Source: Sipunculus nudus (Eukaryota > Annelida > Sipuncula > Golfingiida > Sipunculidae). Taken from it: a stretch of DNA of 64,000 nt. The stretch lies in contig CM049321.1 in the NCBI GenBank assembly GCA_026874595.1, positions 26,645,479-26,709,478 of the forward strand. Direction: 5' to 3'. A program made the translations under genes and the position numbers. Below, in pieces: positions 4,526 to 64,000 of the stretch (the stretch's first letter is position 1; each line of letters starts with the position of its first letter). The notes under the pieces are model-generated. The model worked only from the letters and a program-made list of their open reading frames with translations, was not told where the DNA came from and made no database searches.

Positions 4526-4604
<79 letters not shown>

Positions 4605-15495: not shown

Positions 15496-15552
<57 letters not shown>

Positions 15553-21500: not shown

Positions 21501-24500
21501 CTATCTCTGTTAAATATCACATCATGTGCATACGCTACTTTTAAACTCGAACACAATGTTCATACAATTCTGATAGTATTTTATATGTTGCACTATTTTC
21601 ATAGATTGGTATTTATCGATGAAACATCTATTTCGACAGTTGCTCCCAAGTTTATCCTTGATGACAACTTCCAAGAGACCATCACTCTGAAGGCTGGTAG
21701 CTCCAAAAAGGTCGTTGTGCCATTCACTGCATACCCCAAACCCAAGTCCTCGCTCACCTTCAATGACGGGGAGGTCAGGAACCCCAAACGTATCAAGCCA
21801 GACCAGAAGGATGACAAGGTCACCTTGGTCTTCAACAAAGTGGAACGCCCTGACTCTGGCAACTATGTGCTGACATTGGAAAATGATGGTGGCAAGGCAA
21901 CTCTCACTGTCATCCTGATTGTACTAGGTACGATAATCTTATATTCATTACTCATAGAGAGGATTGTAAAACGAAAATTTAAAAAACACTACATGACATG
22001 TCACTCTTATGTGGTAGGGAAATAACTTGGAATAAAACTTAGGGTCAGATGAACATTTAAATTTAAAATAATAAAGGTTAGATAAATATGATGAATATAA
22101 TTTCAGATGCCCCCAAATGCTATAATTGCATCAGATTGATTTTAAATGTATGTAGTGTTCCGAGATTATTGGTCTTTGTCCTTATGTTTTGTAGATACAC
22201 AAGTTTGATATACCTAAGAGAAATGGTAAGTGCAAGCAAGGAAAAAAAGAAGCATATATATGCCTGTCATCATGAATGTTGACTTGTGTTTTTCAGATAA
22301 ACCATCCCCACCAAGGAACCTAAAGGTGTCCAACATCACAGCTGAGCATGTTGACTTGTCATGGGATGAACCAGAAGACGACGGAGGCAGTGAGATCACA
22401 CGCTACATCGTAGAGAAGCAGAACGTCGCGCGCAAGTCTTGGCAAGATGGTGGCAAGACTCCAAACACTGAGATCCTGGTGGAAAAACTCATTGAAGGAA
22501 CAACTTATCACTTCCGTGTGAAAGCAGAGAATGCTCAGGGACAGAGCGAGCCTGTGCAGACCAAAGAACCAATCACTGCCAAGGATGGTTTCAGTAAGTC
22601 ATGGTTCACATGTTAACATAAAACTTAATGTGAGGCATGGGACAACAAAGCTTAAAGTCCTAGCTTCAAACCCACAAACTGACAAAGTGCAAAGAGAAAT
22701 ATATCAGTCTGATAACAATTGTTTTTAATTTAGAAATAATGGCTATTCTCAGCCTTAAATATAAATATCTTATCTAACAGAAGGCTTCTCTGTGATGTAT
22801 TATTTTTACATGGTTATATTTATCCTCATCCATTACCTTGCACCAGCTGTAGTCAGGGACCTAATTCTGTAAAGGGTGAGGTATCACATGTGATGATAAC
22901 TTTGTATCTTTTGACATATCAGAGTGTTTTATTTAGGAGAAATATTCATCATTCATTTCAGAGATAGATTACAGGAATAAACATACAATATCTGACATAT
23001 ACCTTTGGGGTAATATTTTCTGATTCTGGTATTATATTCATGATCAGTATATATTCCTCTCCAAATCATCTTCTCATTTGAGAAAAAAATGAACTAAAGA
23101 GACAGTAGGAAAGAAACTTTTAAAAAGCTTGATGATTATTTCTGTACAGTCATGAGGCATAATTCAAATAAAACCCTTTGACTTTACCATACAAGAAAGT
23201 TATATTTTAAATCTTGTATATAAATTATCCTTATTTCAGACAAACCTGAAGCTCCTAGCAAACCAGTTGTCAGCAAAAGGACACCCAATGAAGCCACCAT
23301 TACCTGGTCCCAGCCAGAGAATGATGGTGGGTCACCAATCACCGCATACATTGTTGAGTTCCGTGCTGAGGGAGACATGAAGTGGCAGCCAGCCACAAAG
23401 GATGCAGTGGAATGTGAGTACACTGTGCCCAACCTCAATGAAGGCAAGGAATACGAGTTTCATGTGGCCGCTGTCAACAAAGCAGGAGCTGGACCATTCT
23501 CCGAGCCATCTGATCTGAGCAAATATGGTCAGTATTATGTTTTATATTGTGTGGCTGATTTTACTGCATTGTCCATCTCCAGACCTATATATATATAACC
23601 AGTTAAAAATATGAGGATGAAAATTGATTACAACTTATGTTTTAACACGAGTTCAATATTGAATTAACTTTGGAGATGTTTAGTTTTTTTATGTATAAAG
23701 GTTTGTCATGAATGCCCATCTGCGACTGAATGTTATGTATATAAAGGGAACAATGACAGTGTACAAAGATCTCTATAATTTCTACAGTAATTTATACTAT
23801 ACAGTTCATTAATTATATTTGTTAAAATATGATAGATTAAAATAACAAATGAGATACAAAACAAAAGGTTTTGGTGGAACTTTCACTGCTGATCACATTG
23901 ATCAGATGCTTAGAATATTAATTTTCATAGAACATAATTTAGCATGTGATAATATTTTAATCCAGGGTACTATTATGAGTTCCAGTTCATGAGTATAAAT
24001 ATATTTTGACAGATCACCATTCATTGATATTTCCCCAGATGATAATTTGGGGATCAATGTTGTTTTTGCTTTTCTGTATTTGAGTGTGGACACTTAATGA
24101 CAAGTAAAACCTGTATTGTTGTCCTTACAGTTGACCTTGTCATGCTTGTGCGTCCACTAGAAGATCAAGTCGTTAAGGACATCCCAGGAGTGGCCACATT
24201 TGAATGTGAGTTTTCCAAACCCAAGGTGAAGGTCACATGGGTGTGTGATGGCAAACCTGTGAAGAAAGGAAAGAAATACAACATTGAGGTGGACGGAGCA
24301 GTACACAGACTTACCGTCAAGGATGTGACAGACAAAGACATCTGTGACATCTCTGCCAAGTTTGATGAACTGTCCACAGATGCCAAGTTGTTAGTGGAAG
24401 GTTAGAGCCATTTGTAAATTCAACATTTTAGGGAGCTCCAAAGAACTCATAAACAAATATTGCCTTTTGACTCTAAATGTAGCCTGCTATAATTTGCATA

Positions 24501-27500: not shown

Positions 27501-29285
27501 CAGAAGACACAGTCCCAGACACAACATACCATGCCAAGAAACTGAAAACCGACACCAGTTATGAATTCCGTGTCGCTGCAGAAAACAAAGCTGGTGTAGG
27601 GCCATTCTCTGAGCCCAGTGCAACAGTCCATCTTAAAGAACCAGTCAGTAAGTATGGCAGAGTGCAGGTTGATTTATAATAAAATACTTAAAGTAAGGAT
27701 GGACCCTAAAAGTTTGTTGTAGTTTGAACACAGATGAAATAAAAGAAATGTGTTATTCTTTTTCATTGAAATCATCTGACCAATAACATTAAATAAAGTA
27801 TCATATATTTTTTAAATGTTCATGTTTTTCTGTGTTGATCATTGACAGTGGGACAGTTACACTGGCTTCGGAAAATATGAGTTGCGCAAGTTATTGATGA
27901 GTTTAGAATAAGGCTTCAAGTTTAAATACAGTATCAGAAACAGTATCTGACTTTCATCTTGCTTGTTTTTCAGCTCAGCTAGGTGCATCATGTTTCCCTT
28001 TAAATATCAAAGAGACTGTCCTGTCCTCTTTACAGTTTCAATGCTCTTCAGAGGTCCATGTACAATGTAATTTTGAAATGTCAGATAAAGAGCACATTTT
28101 AATGCCCATTCAAGTCAGAGTACAGTCAGGTCAAACTGTGACTGTTTGGACTGCTTTTGGGAAAAGTAAATGTAAAAAGTAGGATTTGAATAAAAATAAG
28201 GATTTTGACCATACAAACTTTTGTAATGTTGTAGCTGGTAGCCCACCAGAGCTTGAGGAGCCCCTCAAGGATACTACAGCTATCAAAGACCAGAAGGCAA
28301 GCATCAAATGTGTCATCAACCCTGGCAAACCAGAGGCTGAAGTTAAATGGTAAGCATAGCTTCATCAGGGGTTACTATACTGTTTATGTAACACTAAATG
28401 GTGTTGTTGTTGTACTGTTAGATGTCAGCCTTGTATTTGAATCATTCTGGTTTTGAATCCGTTTATGTTAAAATGAAGAGAGATGATCCAGAAAAGAAGG
28501 TTTGCACTCAAATTTAAGAAAAACAGCAATATTCAGATGTCACAGATGTAACACAGGATTTTTGCTCATTTGAACTGGGAAAAATATCTTCCAGATAAAA
28601 TAAACTGATAGAGGATTTTGCTGACAGAATACAGGAATATTTTATTTGGACTCTCTGTACAAAAATGTTTTACAGCTGGGTAATTATTCTTTTATTGTAC
28701 TCTTCAGGTTCAAGAACGGCAAAGAACTGAAATCAAGCAAACGCTGCAAGATCACCTTCATTGACGGTGAAGCTGAAGTGACATTCAAGACCACAGAACT
28801 CAAGGACACAGCCAACTTCAAATGTGAAGCTTCCAACAAACTGGGCAGTGTCAGTACCGAGTGCAAGCTTGAAGTACAAGGTCAGTGCTATTGTATATAT
28901 ACCAAGATAGTGGTAAAAGGATGACGCACAAAGTGTTCAGTTCTTTAAATGTCATTTGGCCTTCCTGTTGGTAATATATTCACCCATTTTAACAATGGAT
29001 ATAATTTTGTTGGATTCTGTTTTGTTTGATTAGTAAAATCAGTCCAATCTTGAAAACTTTTCTTTTTCCTGTAAAGCACATCTTAGAATTATTTACCTTA
29101 GGATTATGTGCATCCCTTCTTAGTGTATACCCTAGGCACCTGCTAGCACTGGTAGCACTGAAGTCTTTTACATTTGTGTGATCAGATTTTCCATGATTAT
29201 AACCACCTGTTTTCAATTTCTATGGTTACGGAAAAATATTGGCGGACAATTTGGAGCATTGTAGAATGAATAAAAGACTATATAA

Positions 29286-29333
<48 letters not shown>

Positions 29334-32001
29334 TATATATATAATCTGATATACCTTTGTTAAAACATATTAATATTTTTATTAGTAATTGCTCATGACG
29401 TTCACAGAAATTGTATAAAAATATGCAGATAAGGCGAAGTTCACTTTACAGATAAATGATGGCTATGTGTTGATTTTGTTTCTTCAGTTCCACCAAAGAT
29501 TGAGTACGATGCCAAGTTGACACAACAGAAGCTGAATGAAGGCAAGACCCTTTCTCTGCCTGTCAGCATCACAGGTGTTCCAAAGCCTGAGGTGAAATGG
29601 TTCCTCAATGATGAACCATTCATCCCTGAGGGCAACAAGTCAATGGAAAGGAGAAATGGTCATGTGACCCTAAAGGTCAAGGACGTGGCAACACAGGAAT
29701 CAGGAACTTACAAAGTGGTGGCAGAGAATCCTGCCGGAACTGACAGCGCAGAGTTCACTGTAACAGTCAGCGGTAAGAGATATTACCCCAGTGACAAAAT
29801 TTTACGTTATCTGCAGAGTTGACTGTAACAGTCAGCAGTAAAAGATATTACCTGGTGACAAAATTTAACATTATCTGCAGAGTTCACTGTAACAGTCAGA
29901 GGTAAGAGATATTACTGCAGTGACAAAATTAACATAATCTTTTATTAAACATTACTAGTATGTCAGAAACAACACCAGGATTTATCTTAAACAATACACT
30001 TTCTATCAATTCAAATTTTGATATTGCTAATTTCTCCTAAAGCTATTGTAACTTTTCATTATTCTGTATTTCAGTGCAGACAGAAATAAAGTATTTTAAG
30101 ATGGCAGATTGTGGTATATGTTTGAAAGGACGGTTTGTACTTTACTTAGAAATTTTCATTGTTTCTCCAGGCAAACCTACCCCACCACAGAACTTGCAGG
30201 TGACAGAGGTATACAAGGACTATGTGGTCATCACCTGGGAAGCCCCTGTATCAGATGGAGGCTCTCCTATCACTGACTATGTCATCGAGAAACGTGACAT
30301 GAAACGCAGCTCATTCACCAGTGCTGGCACAGTTACTGGAGATACCTTCACTTTCAAGGCTGAGAAGCTGGTTGAGGGCAATGAATATCTCTTCCAGGTT
30401 TATGCCAGAAATAACATTGGTGACAGCGAGCCTGTCCAGACATCAGAACCTGTCAAAGCCTGCCTACCCTTTGGTGAGTGTGCACTTGAATGAAGTCTTT
30501 TGTGTTGTTCAAAATCAATGTATGTTATTCTTGATGGAAAAACCCATACAAATTGAGCAAATAAGCAGTTAGCACACAGCCATGAACACATACACAGACA
30601 CATATGTACTTAATATATATATATAAACAAATATTTAGCAGTTCACTGATATGTAGCAGATCACTGATAAATATGTTAGTGTGGAAACTACCAGAACTGT
30701 GCATGGAGTTGTTTTCCTTGACTTTCACCCAAGTTTTAAACTTGAGTTACACCAAAAAGCCAACCATTCAGTGTTTTTTTCTGTGTATAAAATGTCAGAT
30801 TAAAGGAAAATAAAGAAATAGTGGCCATATAATGATTTCAGTGTTATTCTAATCTGCCGCTCTTCTATGTCAGATGTTCCTGGCCCACCACAAAACCTGC
30901 AGGTCAGCGATATCACCAAGACGTCATGCACATTGACCTGGGAACCCCCGGCTTCAGACGGAGGATCACCATTGATTGGCTATTTCATCGAGAGGACCAT
31001 AGGCAAGACCTGGACCAGACTCAACAAGAATCCGCAGAGCCTGCGTACACTAGAACTAGATGACCTGAAAGAGGGGTCGACCTACAAGCTCCGCGTTATT
31101 GCAGTCAATGAGGCAGGCGAGGGTGAACCTGCAACAACTGGCAAGTTTGTGGCCAAGGATGACTTTGACAAACCAGGTAAAAATTATTTTTAATTAGTAT
31201 GATCAATATTGTCCTCTGTGATCTCACTTCACTTGTCATTTATGATGATGGTTATATAAAGGGTGGTGTGTCAATGGTGGATTAATAACCTCTTTTATAC
31301 TGCTCCTTTGTTTATGGTCATAATTTCAGTTCCCTACGATGGGTGAGAATGTTTGAGTTTTTAATTGTAACCTCATTATCTCATTCATCAGACAACCAAT
31401 ACCATGATTTTTAGTGTCAACCTATTTCCTGCTGAAAATTTGTGCATCACATTTTTGGCTTATATGTTGAGTCAGTCAAATAGTTTATGGAGCATTATAC
31501 GTGACCATATATTAAATTACAGGTAAACCTGGCACACCTGAAGTGACATCAATGGAACCAACCTCTGCCACCATCACCTGGACCACACCTGAGAGTGACG
31601 GTGGCGCCCCCATCACAAACTATCAGATAGAGAAGCGTATTGCAGGTGATAAGAAATGGAAGCTGGTCAACAGGGATGAAGTGGTACCAGACACTACCTA
31701 CACCATTGAAGGGCTTATTGAGGGCAAGGAGTATGAGTTCCGTGTTACAGCTGAAAACAAAGCCGGACTTGGACCTCCCTCAGGGCCATCAACACCTGCC
31801 AAATATGGTCAGTAGTCAATTTAGCTTTCAAAGATGTTAAATATAAAGTAGTTGTAAAAGATGAAGAATTATTGAGTGGATATAGAAAATAGCTTGAAAT
31901 TGAATATGTTTGTTCAATTCAGAAAGACATTGTTTGTACCTATATATGGGCACATTATAGCATTTTGGCTCCTTGAAAATTGTACAAGGTTTATTATCTT
32001 A

Positions 32002-32056
<55 letters not shown>

Positions 32057-32201
32057 GGTATAGCCGTGTTAGTTTGTAGTTGAAGCGAAGGTTGAGATAA
32101 ACAGTGACGCCTTTTAGATAGACTAACTAGTTTATTAACACACAAGTGTGTTAATAAACTAGTAAGTCTATCTAACAGATGTCACTGATTTTCTTAACCT
32201 T

Positions 32202-32272
<71 letters not shown>

Positions 32273-35200
32273 AAAACATTACTTAAATAAGGCTGAAGAA
32301 AAGACTGGTTCACTTTCTTCTCTTGCTGGTTCACTTTAGTTCTTGTAATTAATGCACTCATTGAGATAATTTCATTCATTAGGATAAAATGCATTAACCA
32401 ATTGTTATTTGCAGAGGAAACAGTTGAGTTTGTGCGTGAACTTCAAGATGTGACTTTGACTGAACTGGAAGTGACCGTGACCTTTGAATGTGAGGTCACA
32501 AAGGATGGTCTTCAGCCAGAATGGTTCAAGGGAGACAAACCAATCAGGCGTGATGTCAAGTATGACATCATCAGTGATGGGTGTATCCACCGCCTAGTGA
32601 TTGACAAGGCCACAGGAGAAGAAGAGGGTGACTACAAGGTTGTCTTCACGGAGCAAAAGTTGAAGTCAGCTGCCAAACTGTCTATCCAAGGTTAGTTATG
32701 TGATGTTCAGAACAGACTTTGCTGCAAAGGCTGTTAACTAGGAAAACAGTTACTTTGATAGATCTTTTACAGGTTTATGGTTTAATAGTTTTACCTGGCT
32801 GCTTTGCAGGTTGTATTTCATATTCTTATAGTTTATATTAAAAGAAAGAGTAAAAATGTAATAAGTAACTACAAGCTGAGGTCCTAATGGGATAAAGTAT
32901 ATTTAGCTGTAAAAATTATTGCTATTGATAGGAACTGGGGTAGTAAATTCACAATTGTAGCATGCTGTCATCTTCAAATAAGGTAGTTTTAATCAGTATT
33001 TTAAACTTTGTAAATCATCAAATGAATATTTGCTTCATGTTCTACTTTATACCCTGTGAATGACCTTTGATGTCAGAGTTTGATAATATTGTGTTCTGTT
33101 TTAGTTCCACCCTTCTTTGCCACTGACAAACTGGAGGACACTATCATCTTGAATGCTGGTCAGTCCACCATTGTGGAGGTGCCATTCAGAGGTAACCCAC
33201 AACCCAAGGTTACATGGACATACAATGATGGCAAACTACCAGACAAAAAGAGGACTAAAACAGAGACCATCTACAACATGTCCTGCCTGACCCTCACCAA
33301 GGTCATCCGCAAGGACTCTGGCAACTACAAGGTCAACCTTGAAAACCAGTTTGGAATCTTGGATATGACCTTCAAGGTCATTGTCAGAGGTTAGTGACAT
33401 TCAGATTATTCCTGAACAAGTAATATTCTCTACAAGAATTAGTTTCTCTTATTTTGGAATTATGATGGCAGTATTTATAATAATTGCCACTCTTGAAATC
33501 AGGTTTAAATTCCTGTAAGAAAAGCAAAGTGCTGTTCTTGACTGTATGGATTGATAATCATTGTTTTTGTACAGAAGTAACATGTATTTTAAGATACATG
33601 TGACTATCCTTATTTTTGTCAGCTGCTGCACCATTGTTTACAGGGAAATACACTTTTCCATATGACTTGATGTCACATATACCTGAGGTTAATTATCTCC
33701 TATTTATTTTACTGCAGATGTGCCAGGACCAATAGAGAACCTGAAGGTCAATGAGGTCACAGAGAATACCATCAGCTTAGTGTGGCTTCCACCGGAGGAT
33801 GACGGTGGCTGTGACATTGACTGCTATGTCATTGAGAAGGTGGAAGGCACGAAAAAGACATTTGGATCTGAAGGAAAGTGCCAGGAGCCGGAATATACTG
33901 CTACCAAACTTACTGAAGGCAAGGGGTACCGCTTCCGTGTGGCAGCAAAGAACGAGGTTGGAGTTGGACCATTTGTGGAAATGTCCAAGTCGGCTACACC
34001 AAAGTGTCCACACAGTAAGTTCTAATTAATTTATGCCTATATTTTGCATGTTTAGCCATGACTCTTCCTGTTATTACTGGTTGTCACAGGTTACTTTGGT
34101 TACTGTGCAATACACCTTATAAACTCATTGTCAAAATTTTAAAGTAATTTTATGCTCCTATTTACCAGTCTAATGTCTGTGGCCATGACTATACCTGGTA
34201 GTGCTGCAAGTCATAAGAGAAAGTTTATTACATTACATTGCTGGAAATGAAAATATTTAAATGCTTTTGTCTTTTGAACTGGCAGGTATCATTAAATGAT
34301 TGTACAAGATAACATACTGTGGAATTCAAAGATAATAAACCAAAAGCAGAATTTTATTGATTCTGAAAAGTAAAATTTTGTAAAACAAATATTTATTGAA
34401 TATGTTTTGTTCTGTCAGATCCACCAGGACCACCAACCTCTCTTGATGTGACCGATGTCTGCCGTGACAGTATGACATTGTCATGGCAACCACCTGAAGA
34501 GGACGGTGGCTCTCCCATCACAGGCTACACTGTTGAGCGCACAACCAAGGGTACATCCCGCTGGATCCGTGTGAACAAGGAGCCCACTGAGGAACTGACC
34601 TACCAAGTCAAGGAGCTGATCGAAGGCAATGAGTATCAGTTCCGTGTATTTGCTGAGAACAAGGTTGGACCTGGTCCCCCATGTGAGCCTTCCAAGCCTA
34701 TACTGGCCAAGGATCCGTGGGGTAAATATATTATTTTCAGTGTTTAAGATGTAATGTTGCATTTGTAAATAAAGAAACACATTCAACAGGGGATGTAACT
34801 GCTAACATTCTGTTGATAATGAACCAATATGCTCTTAGACCATTGTGATGCTGAGAATATATTATTTTGAATGGGTATGTTCATTATGCATAGATGTGTT
34901 GTTAATATATTGTAAACAGTTAATGAATAATGGTACATCAGAATGTCTCAGCTTTCTTTCATGATTAATTTAATTATTGATACAAGAGAAAAGATGGAAA
35001 TGGTGGAAGGGCATTATTTCACACCTTGTGGCCTATGTTCTGTGTGTGAATGGTTCATTTGAAAAAGTTTGCAAATATGCAGATGGTTGCTGAATAGTGA
35101 ATTATCAAGTTTTTTCATTGTGTTTTATAGATAAACCAGGCAAACCAGAACCACCAATGATTGGCAAGGTCACCAACTCATCTGTGGCATTGTCATGGGC

Positions 35201-38200
35201 ACCACCAGAATCAGATGGCGGAGCAGAGATATTCAACTACGTCATTGAGTACCGTCCTCAGGGTGCATTTAAATGGATTCAGGCCAACAAAGACCAAGTT
35301 CCCACCACCAGCTTTACAGTGTCTGGCCTTGACAAGGACCATGAGTACGAGTTCCGCATCGCTGCTGAGAACAAGGCTGGTGTTGGACCAGCTTCTGAAC
35401 CCAGTGCACCAGTCAAGGTTGCAGAGCCATTAGGTATTGAAAACCATTCCAAATTATTGAATGTATGAAAATGATATAATTAAGCCTTGATTTCTATAAT
35501 TTATAAACAGATCATATAAATTATTGTAGACCCAGAGACATGAAATAATGTTATATTGGTAACAGATTAAAATTTTGTATTTTAAAGCCCTTTCTCAGGC
35601 TAAACATGCAAGACAGGCATTGTAAAATCACAGTCGTGAAGCCCTTGTCTAAATTCAGTAGACAATTCCACTTTCTCAACTGGTCATTCACATACATTTG
35701 TTTTAATAACTGTTTGCCAGAAAAAAAAGACATTTAATCCTCTTCCAAAAGCTGGATACAGATTTACATCTGAGATGTCATTGATGCCAACTGGGCATAA
35801 GTTTCAATTTAGACCAGATACCACATTTGATTATGACAGATTGCACTGGAATATTGTATTGTTATTTCAGTTGGCTCTGCACCTGAAATAGTCTCTGACC
35901 TGACTGACCACATAGTTGTCACACCAGAGTCAGTCACTCTGGAATGTGAAGTCACACTTGGTGAACCTAAAGGCAAGATCCATTGGTACAAGGATGCTAA
36001 GGAGATCTATGCAGGCAAGAAATACGACATTGTTCTTGAAGATGGTCACGCCAAGCTGACCATTAAGGACACAGTCCTGGCTGATGCAGGGGCATACCGT
36101 GTGGAGGCAGCCAATAAACTAGGTCGTGTTGAGACCAGTGGTAAAGTCACTGTACACAGTAAGTGTCAATGTGGTGTTGTGCGAAAGCTACAATATGTCT
36201 ATAAAAATTACACTGATCAAGAGTACTTGGCTGAAAATTTATCATAACTTAGACAATATATCTGGTTGTATACATTATGTTTTTATTTAATTTTTTTTTA
36301 CTATTAATCTGACAGATATACAGAGTGGCAATATACACAGTGACAATATACACAGTGACAAAATATTTATGAGAATTTCATGTATATCCATGTAAGGAAC
36401 ATAACTTTGCTCATGTGAGACCCAACAGGACAGGTTGTATACATTATGGTAACTGTTTATTCATTTTCATGCAGACATATGTTTATTTTGACACATGTCA
36501 TATTTCTGGTTAATCAGGGTTGCAAGAGAGATTCTCTCTTTTCTTTAAATTTGATAAATAATTTGAGCAGCAGTAAATTTACTCCTTCTTGACACAAATG
36601 GAAGCACTGCTATGATGCTTGTTGTTTTCAACTTTACAGGTGCTCCCGAAATAACTTATGATGCCAAATACAAAGAAACACAGCAGCTGAAAGAAGGCAG
36701 TTCCCTAGTGATCAGTGTTAACATCGCCGGTACACCAAAACCAACCATCACCTGGTACCATGGTGATGATGAACTTGTGCCTGGCAAGAATGTCACAATA
36801 GAAACCAAAGAGAACTTCTCCCGCATCACAGTGAAGGGTGTGAGCACCAGTGATGCAGGAAACTACCGTGTTGTGGCAGAGAATCCTGTAGGAACTGCTG
36901 ATGCATCATTTGATGCTGTTGTAAAAGGTTTGTGTACAAGTTGGCTTATAATGTTATAGTTAAAATCATCAAGAAATGACTGAGGAATCAAAGTGACCAT
37001 AATAAACAAGGCTTAAAATGAACCTTGGCCCTGCTGTCAATAATATTACCAATTATGAAGTTCCTGTATGTCTTAACCTTTGACTTATTCATATCAGAAC
37101 ATATGTCAGAGCACTGATATAATAATGTTCAGTTGACTCGGGACTGTACATTTCTTCAAAGACTGTAATTAAACATTTTTAATTTTTAACGAGTTGTGAT
37201 CTTATTATTTAAACTAAAAATAAAATGATTATCAACATATTCACTTCTGTGTGCTAATACAGGCTTTGACATTGAACAACTGTTCTAAATCTTCTAATGC
37301 ATGAAATTGCCCTCAGTACTAACTTACGTTCTATGAATCGTCAGAAGTGGCTGATTAGTGATTCAAGCAGTGCCTTAAATTTGCTAGTTTATGAATAAAT
37401 AAAAAAAACAAAGTAAATTTTGGACAAGTGTTCTTTTTTGCAAACTTTACAGTCCAACCCTTATAAATTTCTAGTAAAGTAATCCCTGTATCAATCTCTG
37501 GATTTATTATTACTTGACTATATATCAAGCAGCTAAGTACAGCTTTAAACTACATCTTGTAGAGTGATGGTCACCATTGTCCTTTTCTATACAAGATCAC
37601 TATATGTCTTACAGGTAAGCCATCTCCTCCACGAAACCTCCATGTGACTGAGGTCAACAAGGACTATGTTGTCCTGGCCTGGGAGGCATCTGAGAGTGAC
37701 GGTGGATCCCCAATCACGGAATACGGCATTGAGAAGACTGGTGTTAAGCGTCTGAACTACACTAATGCTGGTCGTGTTCCTGCTGACACCTGTACTTTCA
37801 AGGTGCCTAACCTCGTAGAAGGCACAGAGTACTTGTTCCGGGTGTATGCTGAGAACAAACTTGGACAGAGTCAGCCAGTTGCTCTAGACAACCCAGTGAT
37901 GGCCAAACTTCCTTTTGGTATCTATCTCAAATATAACATCCTTCATTCTGAATTTAGGGTAAATCTTAAGTGATGTATAGGACAACATTTAGAAGTCTAT
38001 TCAAATTAAAAAATGAAACATGTCAAGAAGTCATCTTAATCATTTTTTTGGAAAATTTTGGCACTGTTAGCAGTGTATAAACATTGTATAAACAGAATGT
38101 AAAGCCTGCTTAAGACAACTGTGTAGTTACTGCAGATAAATTCCAAGTTTGTATGTGGTGCCAACAATGTCTTACTTTGTCTGTGTTATGTAACAATACT

Positions 38201-50200: not shown

Positions 50201-53200
50201 ACACTAAGTCACTTGTCGACTGCCCGTATTCTAGTTTAGTAGATCTGTTTAAGTATAATGTAAAAATGTTTCATGCAAGTAGAAAAGAAATTGCAGCAAA
50301 AATGTCAGTGTCCGTTAGTGAGTATGTGCATGTGTATACAGAACTTTTTTGATTGATGATTCCAGTGGCTTCTAAGTAAAGACATATTTTCATTATTTGA
50401 TTCTTAGTGTATCAAGTGCTGATTTTCATTTTTCAGAGGAAGCAATTGACTTCATCAAAGAACTTGAGGATGTCACAACTAAGAGCATTCCTGAGGATGT
50501 TACCTTTGAGTGTGAACTGTCTAAAGCAGGAGTCAAGGTTGACTGGTACAAGGGAGACCGCCTGCTCAAGCCCAGTGATAAATATGACATTTTTGCTGAT
50601 GGTGCTACCCACACTCTTACTATTAATAAAGCTGACGGGCATGATGAGGGAGAATACAGAGCTGTGATCAAGGGCAACGAGTCTGCAGGCAAACTGACAG
50701 TGCAAGCTCCACCCAAGATCTTCCTTCATGACAAGTTCCAGGATGTGCTCGTACTTAAACGTGGAGCCACAGCAGTGATTGAAGTTCCATTCACGTGCCA
50801 CCCACAGCCAAACGTTACCTGGAAGCTCGATGGTAAACCGGTGGCCCCAATGCCCCGCATCAAGACAGAGACCATCTACAACATGACTGCTCTGACCATC
50901 ACCAAAGCTGAACCAGAGGATGCCGGCAGCTACATCCTGACTCTGGAGAACCCCAGTGGCAAAGCTACTGTCACTGTCAAAGTCAAGGTGCTAGGTAGGT
51001 AGCTGATAAAACACCTAAACTGCCAGGTTTAAGGTTTTAAGTAGGTCACTGATAACATCTAAACTGTCTGGTTCAAGGTTCTCAGTGGGTCACTGATAAC
51101 ACCTAAACTGTTAGTATCAAGGTTCTAAATAGGTTGTTGATAACACCTAAGCTGTCAGGTTCAAGTTTCTAGGTAGATTGCTGATAACATACCTAAATAT
51201 CAACTCCTTAGTTTTGGTAATTGGCACATGTGAATCTGATTTAATCTAAAACTGAACTTTTGAAATGTTAGTCACATACATTAGTTTAAGATTACGACAT
51301 ATCCTGTTTTATATGACACAGGGGTATGCCATTGCCAATCAGCATGTTCCTTATTGATGTCATCACTTAATCCCTGGTAAAAGCAGTCCTTGCCATGACT
51401 GGCCAACTGAATTCCTGTCTGCAATGTTTTGGTGTATGCACCATATAGTAAACATTATGCAGTCTGTGAAGTTAACTGATGTAACCTGCATAAATTAGAT
51501 TGATTGCTATAGGCTTGTGTCAGTCCTCATGCTACCAGCCTCATTCTTCTTCATGCTTTTGGTCTTATGTTAATGTATTTTAGTGAATTAAGTGTATTAT
51601 TTACTAACATTATTTGTATTTCTATTACAGACAAGCCTGGCCCACCAAGAAACCTGGAGGTAACAGAAATAACTGAGAACAGCATCAGTGTGAAGTGGTC
51701 CACCCCCGACTACGATGGAGGCTGTGAAATCATGCACTACATCGTGGAGAAGAGGGAGGGCACCAAACGCACATGGCAGAATGTGGGCACTGTCAAGAAC
51801 AAGGACTTCACTGTGTCCAGCCTTATTGAAGGCAACCAGTACTCAGTGCGTGTATCTGCTGAAAATGAATGCGGAGTAGGCAAACCTGCAGAGCTGCCAC
51901 AGATGATCACTCCAAAGAGCCAGTTTGGTGAGTCTAGATTTAATATATACTTCATCATGATTCGTATAGGGGGTATTTATAAGTATAAATGCTGTAAAAT
52001 ATTTCCCTAGATGAAAATCTTTGTAAGGGAACGGGCAAACCTAAGCCTACAGCTTGCGCCCAAATCCCTTTGATACACTGCTTGTATACTTTTACTATTA
52101 TTGTACGCCTTTTGTATTCTTTGTATCAATAAAATCTTTCAAACAAAAAAATAGGGGGTATTTATAAGTATAAATGCTGTAAAACATTTCACTAGATGAT
52201 TGTCTGTAGCACTTTTAATTATTACGGTTGATAGCACAGCTCATGTCCAAAAGGCTGCTGTTTTTGAACATTTCTAAGTACTTGTTGTAAGGGGAAAAAG
52301 AGAGCTTTGCCAGAGATTATTTGTACATGCATTTCTGTTAAACTAATTTTGCTGTTACAAAATACAGTATATGGGTAGTGACCTGCTCCTGGCTGTAACT
52401 ATTCTTTTAGTGTAAATTTAACTTGTACATTTCAGAGGTACCAAGTGTCCCAGGAACACCAGAGGTATCAGAAATCTTCAAAGATTCCTGCGTACTAACA
52501 TGGGCACCCTCAGAGAGTGATGGTGGCACCCCTCTACTTGGTTACCATATTGAGCGCAGAGCCGGGACCAGTCCAAGATGGCTGCCTGTCAACAAACAAC
52601 CACTCAGTGACACTACATACAAGGTCTCTGACCTGATAGAAGGCACAAACTACGAGTTCCGTATAGTTGCTGAGAATAAGGTTGGCAAGAGCAAACCAAG
52701 CCCACCATCACAGCCAATCACAGCAAAGGATCCATGGGGTAGGTCTCCTGACAGTGCCTCTTGAGTAATATAAATTCAGATCATGACTGAAAAGCAGAAA
52801 CAGTGGGAGATCACCTTAAAACCTTTGATGTTAGCTGGGCATATCAGTGTTGCCTCATATTACTTTAAATGTGGTACATCATGTAGCAAGCTAGTTTTTT
52901 TTTTTCATTTACTGTAAGATGTTCAGGTCTAATTAATTCATAAATTTTATTTATTAATTTATAAAGGTAATAGATAATTCAGTCATTTTATGATGAGTTA
53001 ACACTTCAAATTGATACAAAAATGGCAAAATTTATATTTGTGCAGACAACTTTCATCATGGAATGACTTTTATTGCACAGTTCAGGGTCTTTTCTTTCAA
53101 TGTTTATTTCAAAATGTTTTAAGAAATTATCAAATTTTCTTACACAGACAAGCCAGGCATGCCCAATGACCTACAAGTCAGTGATGTCAAGGGTAATTCC

Positions 53201-56200
53201 ATGAAGGTCAGCTGGTCTCCACCAGATGAGGATGGGGGCTGTCCAGTCAGTGGTTACATCCTGGAATACAAGATGGAGGGCATGTTCAAGTGGACCGCTG
53301 CCAGTCCTGATGAGATCCCAGATACCAGCTACACAGTGACTGGACTGATGGAAGACATGCTGTACTACTTCAGAGTGGCTGCAGTCAACAAGGCTGGTCC
53401 AGGTCCCCATGCTGAGACTGTCAGCCCTGTGAAGGCTGTGGAGCCAATCGGTCAGTTCATCCTGACATTTAATTTGTGTCATGCAAAAATTAGTAATCTT
53501 GCTTTTAAAGTTAATTCATAGGTACTTTCTATAAATTTAGCTGTGTTGTTGTTGTTTGCATTTGGCAAATGTGCCACAAGGAATTTACTTGTATCTTCAC
53601 AGTGCACGGTAATTTCAGGGCAAATTTTGAAATGAAATCAAATTTATACATTGATAATAAAACCAAATGTTGTCATACATAATGATATTTGTTATATGTT
53701 ATTTGTTATTTGCATTGTAATATAAGCAATTACTACTCAACACAGTGTTAGATATTATAGATATCAGGATTATTCTTCTGTACTATACCTTTTCTTAATT
53801 ATTATGTTGTTGCTTTGATTTAATTCAGTTGGTGAACCACCAAAAGTCTTAGCACCTCTTCAAGATGTGACTGTCACTGCACCAGACGATGCTGTCATGG
53901 AGTGTGACATCTTCATGGGAGAACCCACTGGCACCATCAACTGGTTCAAGGATGCCCGTGAAGTATACAGCAGCAAGAAGTACGACATGAGCGTAGAAGA
54001 CAAAGTTGCCACTTTGGTCGTCAAGAACGCTGAACCAGCTGATGCTGGCCAGTACCGTGCTGAGGTGGCCAACAAACTTGGTCGTGTGGATACAGAGGGA
54101 ACACTTGTGGTCCACTGTGAGTGCTTGTTCTTCAATATATGAAACTGTAGAAGTATGAGAAAAGTTATTGGGACTGTCCCACATATGCACAAAAAGTGGT
54201 CTGAGTACATCCCATTACAAACTAGAAATCTGCATTCTAATGAATGCAAGCCTCCACCATTCACTATTTTTTGCCTGTATTCATATGTTCATTTGTGCAT
54301 AAGTGACTTTAGATTTGTAATGTTGTTTGACAACGTTACTGGATCTGGATCATGTGCCTGAGCCATGCCAAAATCTAATCAGTTCTTCATTGACCCATTC
54401 TGGAAATCCCTTAAAATTACATAAGATTCCATACTTAATTGCATGGGTTATGTTGTGAACAAACACACAAACAGGGATGAAAGCATACCCTTATGGTGGA
54501 GGCATCTAACTATATGCTGCATGTGAAACATTTGTGCAGAGGCAGTATTTTATGTTTGTTTATACAACATATAACTGTAAAATGTAACTGAAATCAGTCC
54601 CTTAGTGCTTGAAGAATATCATTTTATGTTTTCATGAACTAATGTTTACCAAGATCCATCCCGAGTCAATGGTTCCTTTAAAATAATATGTTTTAGGACA
54701 TATATCAAATAAGAATGTTTTTGCAGGTGCTCCAAAGATTGATTATGACAATAAATACAAACAACCAATCCACATAAAGGGTGGCAACATGTTGGTCATC
54801 CCGATCAACTTCACTGGCATACCTCCTGCAAACATCACATGGTACCATGGTGACCAGGTGCTTGCGCCATCTGATGACATCACTATCGAGCAAGGAAACG
54901 CTTTCTCAACCCTGAAGGTTGGCAAAGTGGACTTGAGCTGTGCAGGTACCTACAAGGTCGTTGCTGAGAATCCAGTCGGCTCTGACAATGCTGAATTTAC
55001 TGTCAAAGTCACAGGTAAGTGTTTCCTTGTTTTTAAATATATACATATAGTCTATTTGGGGCCTGGATAGTCAAGTGGTAAAACACTTGATCTTCTCTGC
55101 TAGATCCCTGGCTTTGCCATGAGAGTTGGTTGTAGTGGCCCATCCAAAATTGTTTTTTTTTTCTTCTCTGGGTACTCAGGTTTTCTCCATCCCTACAGAC
55201 TGCTGAACGCCACCATTCGAGCCTCATATTAAATTTTTTACCAAGTTGTACAATCCATAGAAAATAAATATAGTTTAAATTTTATTAATCAGTATCTCAG
55301 AAAACAGACAACAAAATGTTCATCATGTGGGACCCTACACGCCCTGATAAAGAATCCTCTCAGGATATAAGGTTGTTCCATAGAGATTCTGTACCTGCAT
55401 TAAAGTTCAAGGGTAGGGCTAGCAAATTTATAACATAGTTAAGCCTGTGAATGTGTAACAAAATGTTGTTGAACCTGTGACTTTATTTTCAGACAAGCCC
55501 TCTGCTCCACGTAACCTGCAAGTGACTGAATTCTACAAAGACTTCATCTCAGTTGCCTGGGAGGAACCAGAGTCTGACGGAGGAGCTGAAATCACTGGCT
55601 ACGTCATCGAGAAACGTGATGCCAACCGCACCATGTGGACCCATGTGGGCGACTGTCTGGCAGAAACACTCCACTACAGAGTCACCAAGCTGTACGAAGG
55701 CAACGAGTACTTGATCAGAGTTGCAGCTGAGAACAATGTTGGTGTCGGAGCATTTGCATGCCTTGATGAACCAGCAAAGGCCTGCCTTCCATTTGGTACG
55801 TGGCTTGCTCTTGCCTGTACTTTCTTCACACCTTTGTACCTCAACCCTGGAAATATAAAGTTCTGTCCAATATATTGTAAAGAATTAAATCATCAAAGAC
55901 TTAAAATTCAGAACTGCTGGATTTAATATTTTACTAGTATGCTTCACAGATGCATTTGTTTCTACATTTTAGAATGCTGTATCACCTTGTAACCAGTAGT
56001 TTATTAGTCCTAGAAGTGTCCAGGCAAGGTGTAGAAAATAAAAAATGGATTTATCTGAATGAAATGTAAATTTCATTTACTTAAGTTGCCCCACTTTTAT
56101 TTTATGATTGTAATTGTTTCTGACACTGGTTCCTCTGGAGTCCAAACACTGGTTTTCAAAGAGGCAGAGTCTGGTTTAAATGATTTCTGATATTGCTTTT

Positions 56201-59200
56201 CACAAAGGTGTTGCTACTGATTTTGATTTTCAGGGTCTGGACATGTCCTTAACCCTTTCTGACATTGGTTTTCCCAGAGTTTAAGCTGCATTTTAATTTT
56301 TTGACATTGGTTTTTACAGAGCCACCTGGACCACCCAAGAGTATCCAGGTTGACAATCTGACCAGGAACAGTGTGACACTGGTGTGGGAGGAGCCTGAGG
56401 ATGATGGTGGCGCACCCGTCACAGGGTACTACCTGGAGAAACGCCAGGCCTTCAGTGATAGGTGGATCAGAGTCACCCAGCAACCACTCACAGACAGGAC
56501 ATACACCAGCTCAGACCTCATTGAAGACAACACATACGAGTATAGAGTGCTCGCTGAAAATGAAGCTGGCATTGGTAAACCATCTGAAAGTACTGGAGTT
56601 TTCACTGCTAAGGATCCTTATGAGAAACCAGGTAAACCTGGCCAGCCAGATGTGACAGTTGATGATGAGGGTAATGCCACTTTGACCTGGGCACCCCCTG
56701 AAGATGATGGCAGGAGTCCAATCACTAACTATGTTGTTGAGATGAAATCCAATGTTGACCACAGGTGGAGGCAGATCAGTGAGAAGCCAGTACCAGAAAC
56801 CAAGTACATCATGCCTAACTTGGCAGAGAATGTGAAGTATGAGTATCGTGTTTCAGCTGAGAACAAGGCGGGTGTTGGACCCCCATCACAGCCATCCAGA
56901 CCTGTACACTATGGTATGTGTCACATTTAATAAAATGCAAAAACTTCATTCTAGGCCTTTAATTTGTTTAGCAAGAGAAAATCTGTGTCTGATGCTATGT
57001 TCACAGGTATTGTTGAAGTATTCCCTTATAGCTGTTACAATATTTGTAACCTGCCTTTTTTTGTGATATCAGTTTATGTCTTTGTGATATCAAGTGTATG
57101 GTTTCTTATGGAACATACAGAAATCTTTCATTTGTTGGTAATAATATTTTTTGTTATTTAATTAACTTTGAATATTTTTTCTTTTCTCTGTACAGATGAA
57201 TTAACATTTTCTTTTCTTTATACAAATGAATTAACATTTAATATTCTCTCTTATCTTTATAGATGAATTAATATTTGATATTATTTGTTTTCTTTACAGA
57301 GGAACCAATCAACTTCCTCAAAGGTTTGACAGATATCACCATAACTGATATCCCCAAGACTGTCACATTTGAGTGTGAACTCTCCAAGTCTAAAGTCCCT
57401 GTGCAGTGGCTGCGCAATGACCAACCAATTAAACGCAGTCAGAAATATGACATTGTCGCAGACGGAAGGATCCATCGTTTGGTCATCAAGGATGCTGATG
57501 GCGAGGACGATGCTCATTACGCCCTGGCTGTCAAGGACAAAGAGAGCCGAGGAAAACTGACAGTACAAGGTCTGTATGATAATCTTATTCTCCTATTCTC
57601 CAGTGCATGAATTAATGTAGCATATCAAACAGCATATCCTTCATACTGATTCTGAGAGATTCCATGACTGCAAGTATATATAATTTATAGATTTAAATTA
57701 AGACTCATTTCAATGTTTCTTATGTCACATATACAAGTGGAAAATTGAGAAAGACTGGTCATATATATGACTTGCCCTTTTGCAGTTCAATTTCAAAGCT
57801 ATCAACCTGAGTTGGACTTTAATTGATCTTCAACTTGCTAGCAGTTGTTTTGCAATAAAAATCATGCTTTAATGTAAAGTTTATGGCAGCTTAGCATTAA
57901 AGTTTGGTTTTGAAGTTTGTTGATGAAATTTTCAGCTCCACCTGAGTTCCATTTTGACAAGTTCAAGGACAAGTTATACATGCGGGTTGGAGCTACGGCT
58001 GCCATTGAGGTGCCTTTCAAGGGCCACCCACAGCCTAAAGTGAAGTGGGGCTTCAACAGAGGTGCTTTACCTGATGACCGACGCTTCAAGGTTGACATCA
58101 TCTATAACATGACTTCTCTAATTATCACCAAGGCAGAGATGAAGGATGCAGGTAAATACTCCCTTACACTGGAGAACGACCATGGCAAGATTGAACTGGC
58201 AGTCCAGGTTATCGTACAGGGTGAGTTGCTTTTATTTAAAACAAACCATCATATGATCTGACATTCTGATTGCAGCTCCAGGGGAGATGGTTTCGCACCA
58301 CACACCCACAATATAGTTGTAGCATCACTGTTATATCTGAGTGTAGTTGTAGTGATGGAAAAGAAAACATTTTATGATTAGTTCATAAAATGTTAGTTCT
58401 CAATTATGAGGCAACATCTGAGACATATCTGAAGCCACATAAATTGAAGGAGTTCATGCATAAAAGCATTAAAAACAGTTAAAATCCCTTCCTCACCCAT
58501 TTTTCCTGAAAATAAAAAAAAATGACTATAACAAAAAGCTGAGGAAGTCAGTGTTGTCATTACTTGTGATAACTGACAAAATTAACTATACATCATGTCA
58601 TGGCTTGAGATAACGGTTCAGTTGTTACCTGACTTTGTTGTTGGAACTGCGATGGTTACCTAGTTAATAGTTACACATTTTAAACTCTGATATCTATGCA
58701 CACTAACTGTCAAGATGTAGTCAATAGGAAGCACTTAGCTGCTGATTACTTGATGAATTCTTACTGTAGAGTCCTCTGTCTTGCTTGTTTCAGACTGGTA
58801 CAATATGCAAGTTCTTTGTTGATGTATTAGACATAAATAGTACATTGATACTTACAATAGTCATGTCAACAATGGTCACTCTGTCATTAAGTATAAAGAA
58901 AGGGATGAATCTTTAAGATTATACATTTTTGGAATATTAATATTGCAGTTTTGTAACTGTCAAGACTGATTCATAAATTTTCTTTAAAATCCTAAACAGA
59001 GCTCTTCTTGTTGACATAGTCTTGCAGGAATCAATGAGTCTTATACCATAAGATGTACTGGTACAACTGTCATAGTTGCAACTATTCTTCATATTCTAGC
59101 ACTTCATGCCTCAATTTGCATGAATGAATCTCTTCTATATGCAGTCAGAAATGAAAAATGCATTCGTGCATTTTTCACCTATATAGTTATAGCTAGAGAT

Positions 59201-62200
59201 TTTCTCATCTTTGTATTTGTATTGTTCATCTTCATGCTGTTCTATGTACTTACATGCATGACCTTCACTTCACACTTACTATAGGCAAGCCCGGAATGCC
59301 GGAAAACCTCAAGGTTACAAATATCACTGAAAATAGCGCAACTCTCAAATGGGCCCCGCCTAATGTAGACGGTGGATCTGAGGTGACTGGTTACATTATT
59401 GAGAGGAGAGAGGCTAATAAGCAGACATTCACACAGGCAGGCATGTCGCGTACTTGCGATTTCAAGGTTACACGTCTGGTGGAGGGTAATGACTATGTGT
59501 TCCGCGTCATGGCACAGAATGAGATCGGTGTTGGTCCGCCAGCAGAACTTGCTGATAGCGTCACTGCTAAAAATCCATTCAGTAAGTCAGTAATACTAAC
59601 AGTAACAATGACTAAATGTCATTTGATATACCCATGTGACATCAGTCTTGACTAAATGTTACATGTGGAAATTGAATGTTTGAAAAATTGGTTGCCTTTT
59701 CCTAGTTCATATTTTTAAATGACACTGTGTGTATGAGACTATTTCTTTTGAATATATATCACACATATTGCATGATTTTTTAAATAAAGTAAACCAAAAA
59801 CAGAAAAGTTCCTTATATATTTTTCTTTAAAAAACATGTTATTGATGTTTATATATTACAGTTTTAGTACCTTAAATGTTTATATCCTGTAGAACTTTTC
59901 TGTATAGACTTATTGGTGAACCCTTTAGTAACCCTTTATAAAAACATTTTATGTATATTTGGAATTAAGGCTGAATCAGGAAACCAGAATTGTAGGTATT
60001 TGCTCTGAATTCTAAACACAATGTAATGAAAACCAGAGATTATCAAGTATAAATTACATAGTACCCTTGTATTTACTATATAACACATTGTTGAAAAGTT
60101 GTTGCCGAGTAGTTTCATCTAACATGAGGAATTTTACAATGAGGATTAATGTACAGTTTCTGTCAGAAGAATGTGGATAAAGGCTTAGGGACAGTGAAAT
60201 GAAAGTGGCCACCACTGAGCTCAAACTTGTCATCAGACATTTTATGATGCTTGCATTGTATTTTTACAAAAATTGTTTATATCCAGTAAAGTGATGCTGT
60301 GTAAGTCATTTTTGTATTCATACTAACATTATATCTTTTATTTTTAATGAACAAGTCAAAAGTGAGGTTTAATGTCAAAGACGTTGATCTTGTAAACACA
60401 CCCTATTCTTGTCATAACTCACATCTGGTTTGTAACTGAATTACAGAGATTTCACCACCTATGTGTCACTATTTGGTTAGGTTAGTCCGTGTGTGTAACA
60501 TGAGGAAGTTTCAGTAACAGGCGATGCTGTACTTTACACAGACCTACCGGGAGCACCTGCTGCACCTGAAGTTACTGATGTCTTCAAGAATTCCATGAGG
60601 CTGCAGTGGCAACCCCCAGAGGAGGACGGCGGCACCCCGATCACCGGCTACTACATCGAGCGGCGCAGTGGATCCTCCAAGAAATGGATCGTCCTGAACC
60701 GTACACCAATCACCGAACTGTTCTACACGATGACTGACCTGTTTGAGGGCACTGAGTACGAATTCAGAATCATTGCCGAGAACAAGGTTGGACCAGGACC
60801 ACCCAGCCAGCCAACACATCCAATCACAGCCAAAGACCCATGGGGTATGTCATCAGAACATATATAAAAGCCCTGGCTTAAATATGTTTAGATGGTTCTG
60901 GGTTAATATGAGAAGTGACTTACCGGTAATTAATCTTGAAGCATGAACTATCAGTGAAATATTTGATTTTCATTCATCATCTGATAAATTGTCATGTTAA
61001 CTATTATGTGGTGATATTTTCCTTTTGCTATTAACACACCTTGCTTGAACCACATTTAATAAAAAAGTATTACAATTCTATTAATAAACTGACTCCATAC
61101 ATTTTAGATTTGTACCAGACCTGCCAGCTTTGTTGTAAATTTTGAAAAGTTCATATTGTGATGAATTTAGATTTCAGTTAAATACAGTCTACTTTTGAAC
61201 TGTTGTATAATGGTATATCTTTCTATTATTGTTCTAACAGGACCCCCAGGTCCACCTGGAACCCCAAAAATCACTGAAGCTCACAAACGCTCTGTAGCGT
61301 TGAAGTGGACGCCACCTGATGATGATGGCGGTGCACCAATTACAGGGTTCGTCATTGAGTATCGCTTCGTGGGTGCGTTCAAATGGAACCGCGCCAACGA
61401 CAGGGAGACCGTGACTGACCTTGAGTATGAGGTCACAGGCTTACGTGAAGGTGAAGAATATGAGTTCCGTGTGGCGGCCCAGAACAGAGCTGGTATTGGA
61501 GAATTTGCCCAGTGTGCGCAGTCTGCCAAGGCAGAAGAACCAATCGGTGAGTAGACCATATTTTATTTTATTAGCATTGGACTCTACCATGATACATTTG
61601 TTTCAAGAATTAAATTAATATGTAATTTTCCAAATTTCTCACTAAACGGTGTATGAATTTTTCTCATGGATCTTAAATTTAAAAGAAAAATTCAGAAACT
61701 TAACTGTCTCCTACACATACCAGACTAAGAACCTGTGACAAGTTCAGAAAGATATGTAATCTTGTATAGCATATTTGTTTTATTCCATTTAAGCCTTATA
61801 CTCAGCCTGTAAATAAACTGTCACCAAAGTATTATTTCGTCCACAATACATTTTCATGATACTTATATGATGATATTACTGTTACAGTGGGTGATCCACC
61901 AAAGATCGTTCAAGGTCTGCGTGATCTGACTGTCGTCTCCCCTGAGATTGCCACCTTTGAGTGCAATGTTAAACCTGGCATGGAGGACACAGAGATCAAA
62001 TGGTGAGTAGGTCCACTGATCATCTTATAATCAAAACTTTATATATCCATGTACTTATATTAATTATGTCAGTATATCATAAATTCTTTTATTAACTACT
62101 AATACTATCTGAGGAGCATATTTTTGTTATATTTTTTGTTTATGTTTGTTTAGTAATCTTACAGGTCAGAATATTTATATATTATAATTATTTTATTTTT

Positions 62201-64000: not shown

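Follow-up and report, generated by a model that had tools for sequence, protein, structure and literature searches.

In vertebrate titin, the C-zone is composed of 11-domain super-repeats with the order Ig-Fn-Fn-Ig-Fn-Fn-Fn-Ig-Fn-Fn-Fn and the D-zone of 7-domain ones, both with single Igs (PMC7427331; this and the other papers are cited for those parts of their text that were accessible). At a pitch of 3.98 nm per domain, 11 domains cover 43.8 nm, within error of the myosin repeat (PMC7427331), and over the three-crown unit a 3-4-4 pattern of indentation follows the Ig/FN3 sequence (PMC10665186). In Drosophila, Sallimus (Sls) comprises PEVK, Igs and five C-terminal FN3s, with no kinase mentioned in the accessible text (PMC9886281; PMC9886278); it reaches the end of the myosin filament, and in flight muscle Projectin covers 250 nm at the filament end (PMC9886278). 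Invertebrate titins are said to have no A-band region and hence to be unable to set thick-filament length as in vertebrates (PMC9140763), and it is described as unresolved whether a fusion gave rise to the one-piece chordate titin or a split to the protostome pair (PMC12198301). The nearest published statement that we found is that lophotrochozoan titins mix I- and A-band features (PMC12063666). Here we describe a titin-like gene, part of which lies in a 64,000-nucleotide stretch of the Sipunculus nudus genome (contig CM049321.1, hereafter C16, positions 26645479-26709478; the window), in an assembly of 1,426,538,692 bases and 153 contigs. It encodes a ten-domain super-repeat with paired Igs, in which two five-domain modules, A and B, alternate.

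Profile hidden Markov models (HMMs) for Ig and FN3 were built from twelve domains of the window, rebuilt from their own hits and used to scan all six frames; hits in the window lay on the plus strand only. A spurious FN3 hit of 10.7 bits at 36816-36908, overlapping a real Ig, was dropped. The domains of the array in the window score 76-137 bits as single domains, the exceptions being two Igs that are split by introns (28246/28709 in B1 and 61899/62396 in B5). A preliminary description of this DNA had claimed an unbroken order Ig-Ig-FN3-FN3-FN3 from 24131 on, with four AB pairs, A5 and part of B5 in the window, and both claims hold: an exon starts at 24131, the domains found from 24145 to 63996 show no break, A1-A5 and B1-B4 are complete, and B5 is represented by its first three domains. 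When the window numbering is carried on through 200 kb of added downstream DNA (extended coordinates), the array totals 12 modules and 60 domains (A1, B1 to A6, B6), all 12 modules being Ig-Ig-FN3-FN3-FN3. Pfam, which is independent of the window, gave three fn3 and two I-set stretches in each of the two modules submitted, A3 and B3.

The period of ten is seen directly when the 60 domains are compared at every distance along the array. At lag 10 the mean identity is 48.9% over 50 pairs; it falls to 48.0% at lag 20 and to 45.6% at lag 30. Lag 5 gives 36.8% (55 pairs), and the remaining lags up to 29 give 31.5-37.4%. A period above ten was rejected, as lag 20 is no higher than lag 10. The length of the AB unit is also nearly constant, at 972, 980, 980, 978, 978 and 987 residues, a variation of 1.5%.

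That two module types alternate, as had also been claimed, is borne out by several comparisons. Among the 462 ways of splitting the modules six and six, the A/B split ranks first with a difference of 10.9 points, the next reaching 5.2, and 22 columns are fixed in one type and absent from the other, while any other split has at most three. The nearest relative lies in the same slot and type for 56 of the 60 domains, and three of the remaining four are closest to the A-type first Ig of module 0, a truncated module in front of the array. Domain trees that mixed A and B had been named as the outcome that would speak against the alternation, and in the trees the two are separate. In a tree of the five domains concatenated, all six A modules lie on one side, and all six B modules on the other, of a single branch that has support 100/100 and is present in 100% of 200 bootstrap trees. 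In quick trees of single domains, the slot and type labels together need the minimum number of changes (four for the Igs, six for the FN3s), a number as low being reached in none of 200 shuffles of each, although B_I1, A_F2 and B_F3 taken alone each need two changes rather than one; with 87-98 columns these trees have few starred branches, as expected at that length. A careful Ig tree places each of the four Ig groups on one side of a branch. The difference between the types lies mostly in the Igs, with identities of 41.8% within and 24.6% between types for the first Ig and 44.0% and 25.7% for the second, compared with 49-51% and 41-45% for the FN3 slots.

The regularity is not perfect. The nearest relative of B6_F3 is A4_F2, and modules 0 and 7, which flank the array, break the A/B alternation. 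The start and end motifs by which the types had been recognized stand only in part: in the spliced protein KDPW is found in 5/6 A modules (not in A1), LPF in 4/6, KY in 3/6 and VG-x-x-P in 4/6 B modules, and EE-x-x-EF in 2/6 A modules and module 0. The final G given for KDPWG, LPFG and KYG does not stand: it comes mostly from reading the codon on into the splice donor (G|GT), and in the spliced protein this position is mainly D or E.

All features of the window are on the plus strand and were delimited by the HMM map and a splice model. The A modules lie at 24131-27647 (A1), 32415-35433 (A2), 39161-42385 (A3), 50437-53450 (A4, in which both Igs share one exon) and 57300-61546 (A5). The B modules lie at 28235-31807 (B1, whose first Ig is cut by a phase-2 intron and whose F2-F3 intron is shifted), 35871-38839 (B2), 42700-45600 (B3) and 53829-56913 (B4), the F2 and F3 domains sharing one exon in each of the last three; B5, whose first Ig is again cut by a phase-2 intron, occupies 61888-64000 with its first three domains and continues downstream. 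Module 0 (20778-23527, domains at 20789-23526) is an A/B hybrid composed of an Ig, an Ig (A type), an FN3 nearest A3_F1 and an FN3 nearest B1_F3. It is preceded by a tandem array of 24 complete Igs of I-band type, one per exon (932-20399, domains at 1012-20395; six of the 24 were placed in the tree), and the window itself starts with a partial Ig ahead of these. Beyond B6 there is one more Ig-Ig pair (module 7), followed by 13 consecutive FN3s ending at extended position 86829. The Igs of module 7 are nearest B6_I1 and B2_I2 with identities of only 32 and 35%, and the first of them groups with second Igs in the quick tree and with B first Igs in the careful one. At extended 87565-87746, 23.6 kb past the window, lies a candidate last exon, which has a splice signal and ends with a stop at C16:26733224.

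The splice model of the window joins 74 exons into 7263 residues in one stop-free frame, with a margin of a few residues in the exon at 5405, and that of the extended DNA joins 101 exons into 9959 stop-free residues with 103 domains (52 Ig and 51 FN3, 36 of these FN3s in the AB array). The extended model omits the candidate last exon and a further exon of 204 residues within the FN3 tail. Of its 100 introns, 96 are in phase 1 and four in phase 2; since the splice sites were chosen by rule, the GT-AG borders and the phases are imposed rather than found. Chance or mis-joined exons as the source of the pattern were ruled out by the HMM scores, the single open frame and the lag-10 signal. An AlphaFold prediction for the two-Ig exon of A4, made with no alignment, had a mean confidence score (pLDDT) of 48.3. 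In a repetitive region such as this, false expansion of the repeat during assembly has to be considered, but one open frame runs through 101 exons and assembly collapse or expansion is contradicted by the divergence of the module copies, which are 32-52% identical at the protein level; we regard such an artefact as hardly credible.

What is each module made of? Among solved structures, the closest relatives of A3 and B3 together are titin chains in two structures of the cardiac thick filament, 8g4l (E 1.1e-202) and 8q6t (E 5.6e-196). Four domains of A3 (Ig2-F1-F2-F3, residues 98-489) can be aligned to residues 691-1081 in the 8g4l chain, which are taken to be a C-zone Ig-FN3-FN3-FN3 quartet. 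For comparison with the PDB, a profile was made for each slot from exons of the window, that of the A first Ig from six domains and that of the B first Ig from three. The second-Ig profile finds three matching stretches in each of the 8g4l and 8q6t titin chains. The A first-Ig profile has Igs of MyBP-C, other titin entries and obscurin on top, and the 8g4l and 8q6t chains are not among the best 60 of its 100 matches; the B first-Ig profile likewise matches other titin Igs and MyBP-C first, scoring 66.9 bits with the 8g4l titin chain and 233.5 bits at best. The other titin entries matched by the first-Ig profiles are presumably I-band domains. In the careful Ig tree, which includes six of the 24 I-band Igs and four Igs of a twitchin-like gene, the A first Igs group with those of the I-band (99/96), and three of the four twitchin Igs group with the whole set of second Igs (99/98). 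From the profile matches and this tree, a module is therefore read as an A-band-type quartet (Ig-FN3-FN3-FN3) behind one extra Ig and, judged by sequence, the extra front Ig in A modules is of the protein's own I-band type.

Strict slot-to-slot homology of the FN3s with vertebrate triplets was tried and rejected: F1 matches best with a first FN3, and F2 and F3 both match best with the same middle FN3. In an FN3 tree with 11 vertebrate and five twitchin FN3s the backbone is not resolved, and the F2 domains of the array do not form one group. Nor is pairing of Igs peculiar to the array: the Ig pair of B3 aligns with two human titin structures, 3lcy (Ig-Ig) and, over Ig1-Ig2-F1, 2nzi (Ig-Ig-FN3). 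We take 3lcy to be titin A164-A165 and 2nzi to be A168-A170, which precede the kinase.

The remainder of the gene bears on which giant this is. Upstream of the window, I-set matches reach back to C16:26408110 among the best 150 of 912 candidates scored. Two 10-kb stretches of these 237 kb were read, C16:26476001-26486000 and 26497001-26507000, and they hold Ig-linker-Ig exons with linkers rich in P, E, V, T and Q, and a PEVK-like frame of 2014 residues (58% P, E, V and K) with a degenerate repeat. Motif patterns for kinase HRD and APE gave no match on either strand over 264 kb, and two DFG-like matches are copies of one minus-strand stretch. On the plus strand, no Ig that could belong to an M-band segment follows the FN3 tail within the DNA fetched. 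The next gene downstream, nuclear-receptor-like by eye, is found near 139-142 kb in extended coordinates.

A separate gene on another chromosome, C14, is twitchin-like: one 10-kb stretch of it has two FN3-FN3-Ig repeats, and a second has FN3-Ig-Ig-FN3 followed by a frame that, by eye, resembles a kinase N-lobe, presumably that of twitchin kinase. The second Ig of its Ig-Ig-FN3 before this frame is nearest the B second Igs (85/77). Because no kinase motif is found at our locus and a twitchin-like gene is present on C14, the gene looks like a kinase-less partner of twitchin, and the lack of a detected kinase would set it apart from a vertebrate-type titin that reaches the M-band. It could be thought that it is nevertheless a one-piece titin of the vertebrate type, whose kinase and M-band part were missed through a long intron, misassembly or a divergent kinase. 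Its quartets are indeed closest to vertebrate titin among solved structures, and only three motif patterns were used in the search for a kinase. Nevertheless, the 13 FN3s are followed by the candidate terminal exon, after which about 50 kb extend to the nuclear-receptor-like gene with no kinase motif on either strand and no more plus-strand Ig or FN3, and the frame resembling a kinase N-lobe sits in the C14 gene. This makes a one-piece titin very improbable. Even less probable is that the gene is itself twitchin/projectin, obscurin/UNC-89 or another Ig/FN3 giant: the domain families are shared and the A first Igs score high against obscurin and MyBP-C Igs, but the twitchin-like gene lies elsewhere, the PEVK-like region and Ig-linker-Ig exons are present, and the best matches are to titin (the RhoGEF and SH3 domains of obscurin were not searched for).

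Compared with vertebrate titin, the protein shares an Ig/FN3 rod in a fixed super-repeat, Ig-FN3-FN3-FN3 quartets and the closest solved structures, but it has an extra Ig per quartet, a period of 10 rather than 11 or 7, two module types, and no kinase or M-band part that we could find. It has the titin-family combination of a spring of tandem Igs and PEVK type, provided that these belong to one transcript, with a super-repeat rod of Igs and FN3s that are of A-band type by their sequence; single-Ig super-repeats of 7 or 11 domains, a C-terminal kinase (by the motif patterns) and an M-band Ig segment, which characterize the vertebrate type, were not found. With Sls, as described in the accessible text, it shares PEVK and Igs, C-terminal FN3s and the partnership with a kinase-bearing projectin or twitchin. 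The separate twitchin gene agrees with a protostome I-band titin of the Sls/TTN-1 kind; the few C-terminal FN3s of that kind do not recur, as there are five in Sls and 51 in the modelled part here. With projectin and twitchin it has in common Igs and FN3s of A-band type, the Ig-Ig-FN3 before the kinase-like frame being the counterpart there, but it has neither their FN3-FN3-Ig core nor, by the motif patterns, their C-terminal kinase, the twitchin-like gene of this genome being the one on C14. The preliminary description was thus right that period and paired Igs differ from the vertebrate titin and twitchin layouts. Its proposal of a thick-filament ruler is not supported: no kinase was found, the 60 domains would cover only about 240-260 nm, and ten domains at the vertebrate pitch do not match the 43-nm myosin repeat. 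In full-text searches of the CC-licensed PMC literature we found no description of a ten-domain titin period, a search that leaves most subscription papers, figures and supplements aside, and the accessible text of PMC12063666 on lophotrochozoan titins names no period, module types or paired Igs. The architecture would accordingly be new in its ten-domain period, lophotrochozoan titins with mixed I- and A-band features being known already from that text (PMC12063666).

We consider, with a probability of roughly 0.6, that the gene encodes an I-band titin of a lophotrochozoan-like animal, a Sallimus-type partner of twitchin that apparently lacks a kinase and carries a C-terminal A-band-like rod of six AB super-repeats, together with the following roles. 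The Ig/PEVK part would be a spring spanning the I-band, and the rod of AB units would lie along the outer 0.24-0.26 µm of the thick filament, anchoring the spring to myosin. The A-band quartet (Ig-FN3-FN3-FN3) facing the filament would be the same in every module, and the register might be set by the extra Ig and by the difference between A and B, which the Igs show most strongly. At about 4.3 nm per domain, a module would equal 1.5 myosin crowns and only the AB pair a whole number of them (3 crowns, 43 nm), which, if the pitch is near that value, would explain why two types alternate. The anchoring role is drawn from the extent of the 60-domain array, only about 240-260 nm, which is close to the 250 nm of Projectin (PMC9886278). 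Most likely, the rod would serve to anchor the spring of the I-band along the outer thick filament, its predicted location, and a partial ruler function of the AB array is possible.

Several points weigh against this interpretation. At the vertebrate pitch, ten domains of 3.98 nm make 39.8 nm, out of step with the 43-nm myosin repeat, with which they agree at 4.3 nm per domain. The FN3 slots do not map one-to-one onto the vertebrate slots. Splice sites were picked by rule, with three acceptors re-picked, including that of the second Ig of B4 at 54727, and all exons are assumed to be expressed within one isoform. The PEVK exons, about 142 kb upstream, would belong to the same transcript judging from their strand and the run of Ig matches in between, about 20 of the 237 kb having been read, and the absence of a kinase depends on three motif patterns rather than on a kinase HMM.

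It is conceivable, if rather doubtful, that with the AB repeat the problem that vertebrates solve with 11 domains has been solved a second time. A straighter path, with about 4.3 nm per domain, would give a 43-nm three-crown span in which a module covers 1.5 crowns, and two chemically different modules would have to alternate to serve integer and half-integer positions. Protostome I-band titins with an A-band rod would then be able to count myosin at the tip of the filament with neither a kinase nor an M-band anchor, and the ancestral bilaterian titin would have had both I- and A-band parts, its A-band rod having been lost in arthropods and nematodes. The setting of filament length has been argued largely from the vertebrate 11-domain, 43-nm repeat, and a strict ten-domain relative in six copies is a natural experiment on it: the spacing of the AB unit would show if the number of domains has to match the myosin lattice. 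Of the statement that invertebrate titins have no A-band region and so cannot set filament length, as worded in the accessible text (PMC9140763), the first half would not hold for this animal. On the question of fusion or splitting, the architecture would be intermediate: a protostome-type I-band titin that has no kinase but carries A-band quartets like those of vertebrates.

How the array grew is recorded in part by its introns. Two introns are missing together in B2, B3 and B4 alone: the phase-2 intron that interrupts the first Ig at its Trp codon, which B1, B5, B6 and module 7 keep, and the intron between F2 and F3, present in B1, B5 and B6. This pattern suggests that the array grew in the middle, a mode of growth also put forward for the C-zone of vertebrates (PMC10665226). 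The tree gives no support to this, as B1 and B2 pair (97/96); because this pairing does not fit a clade of B2-B4, the intron losses may have spread or recurred. In A6, F2 and F3 are fused.

Such a history may be all that the alternation reflects: a module would have been duplicated, the copies would have diverged and the pair would have been amplified, with no difference in role between A and B and no structural meaning of the period. We think this less probable than a rod with a role at the filament, though a serious alternative. It fits the shape of the tree, with A and B on opposite sides of one branch, the record of duplication kept by the exon structure of the B modules, the off-pattern flanking modules 0 and 7, and the small difference between types in the FN3 slots. 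On the other hand, the 22 type-specific fixed columns survive a divergence to about 41-52% identity within types, and AB length varies so little; neither is required by amplification alone, although common descent contributes to both.

Other repeats are present in the I-band part. A 3-Ig unit occurs in three copies at 13707-19756, nearly identical by eye in the translated frames, which is likely a recent triplication. A second Ig repeat lies within 932-6479, where the Igs at 1012 and 3908 differ hardly at all and both carry an acidic EEAPVEEEEE leader. The long domain-free introns at 6480-9632 and 45601-50436 hold repeated frames (for example PSVRPS... and PMGPLF...) that are also found elsewhere in the locus and are, by eye, probably mobile or satellite repeats.

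The 204-residue exon in the FN3 tail (extended 80899-81510, C16:26726377-26726988) is of phase 1, has no Pfam match and contains 11 RRxS motifs, which we take to be a PKA-like consensus; since its length is a multiple of three, it could be a regulated cassette. On the minus strand, at extended positions of about 230151-258248, a neighbouring gene has exons that resemble spectrin repeats by eye; for titin, synteny with SESTD1/CCDC141 or with genes of TRIO type has been discussed (PMC12198301).

When the Ig pair of B3 was compared with the genome, the ten best matches were all in the array (202.8 to 60.6 bits), and the best elsewhere, at C16:35009463, scored 54.5 bits. Of two domains that bear on the animal's affinities, C1q gave 141 matches in the 150 candidates scored out of 203, an expansion typical of bivalves, and the molluscan haemocyanin domain PF14830 matched none of three candidates, nor was there a control match. 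A third Ig/FN3 giant lies on the minus strand at C16:34990001-35010000, where a domain resembling the second Igs is followed, within these 20 kb, by at least five FN3s with no Ig between them; several of its FN3s end in KLP like B_F1, and further Ig matches are scattered over C16:34.89-35.01 Mb.

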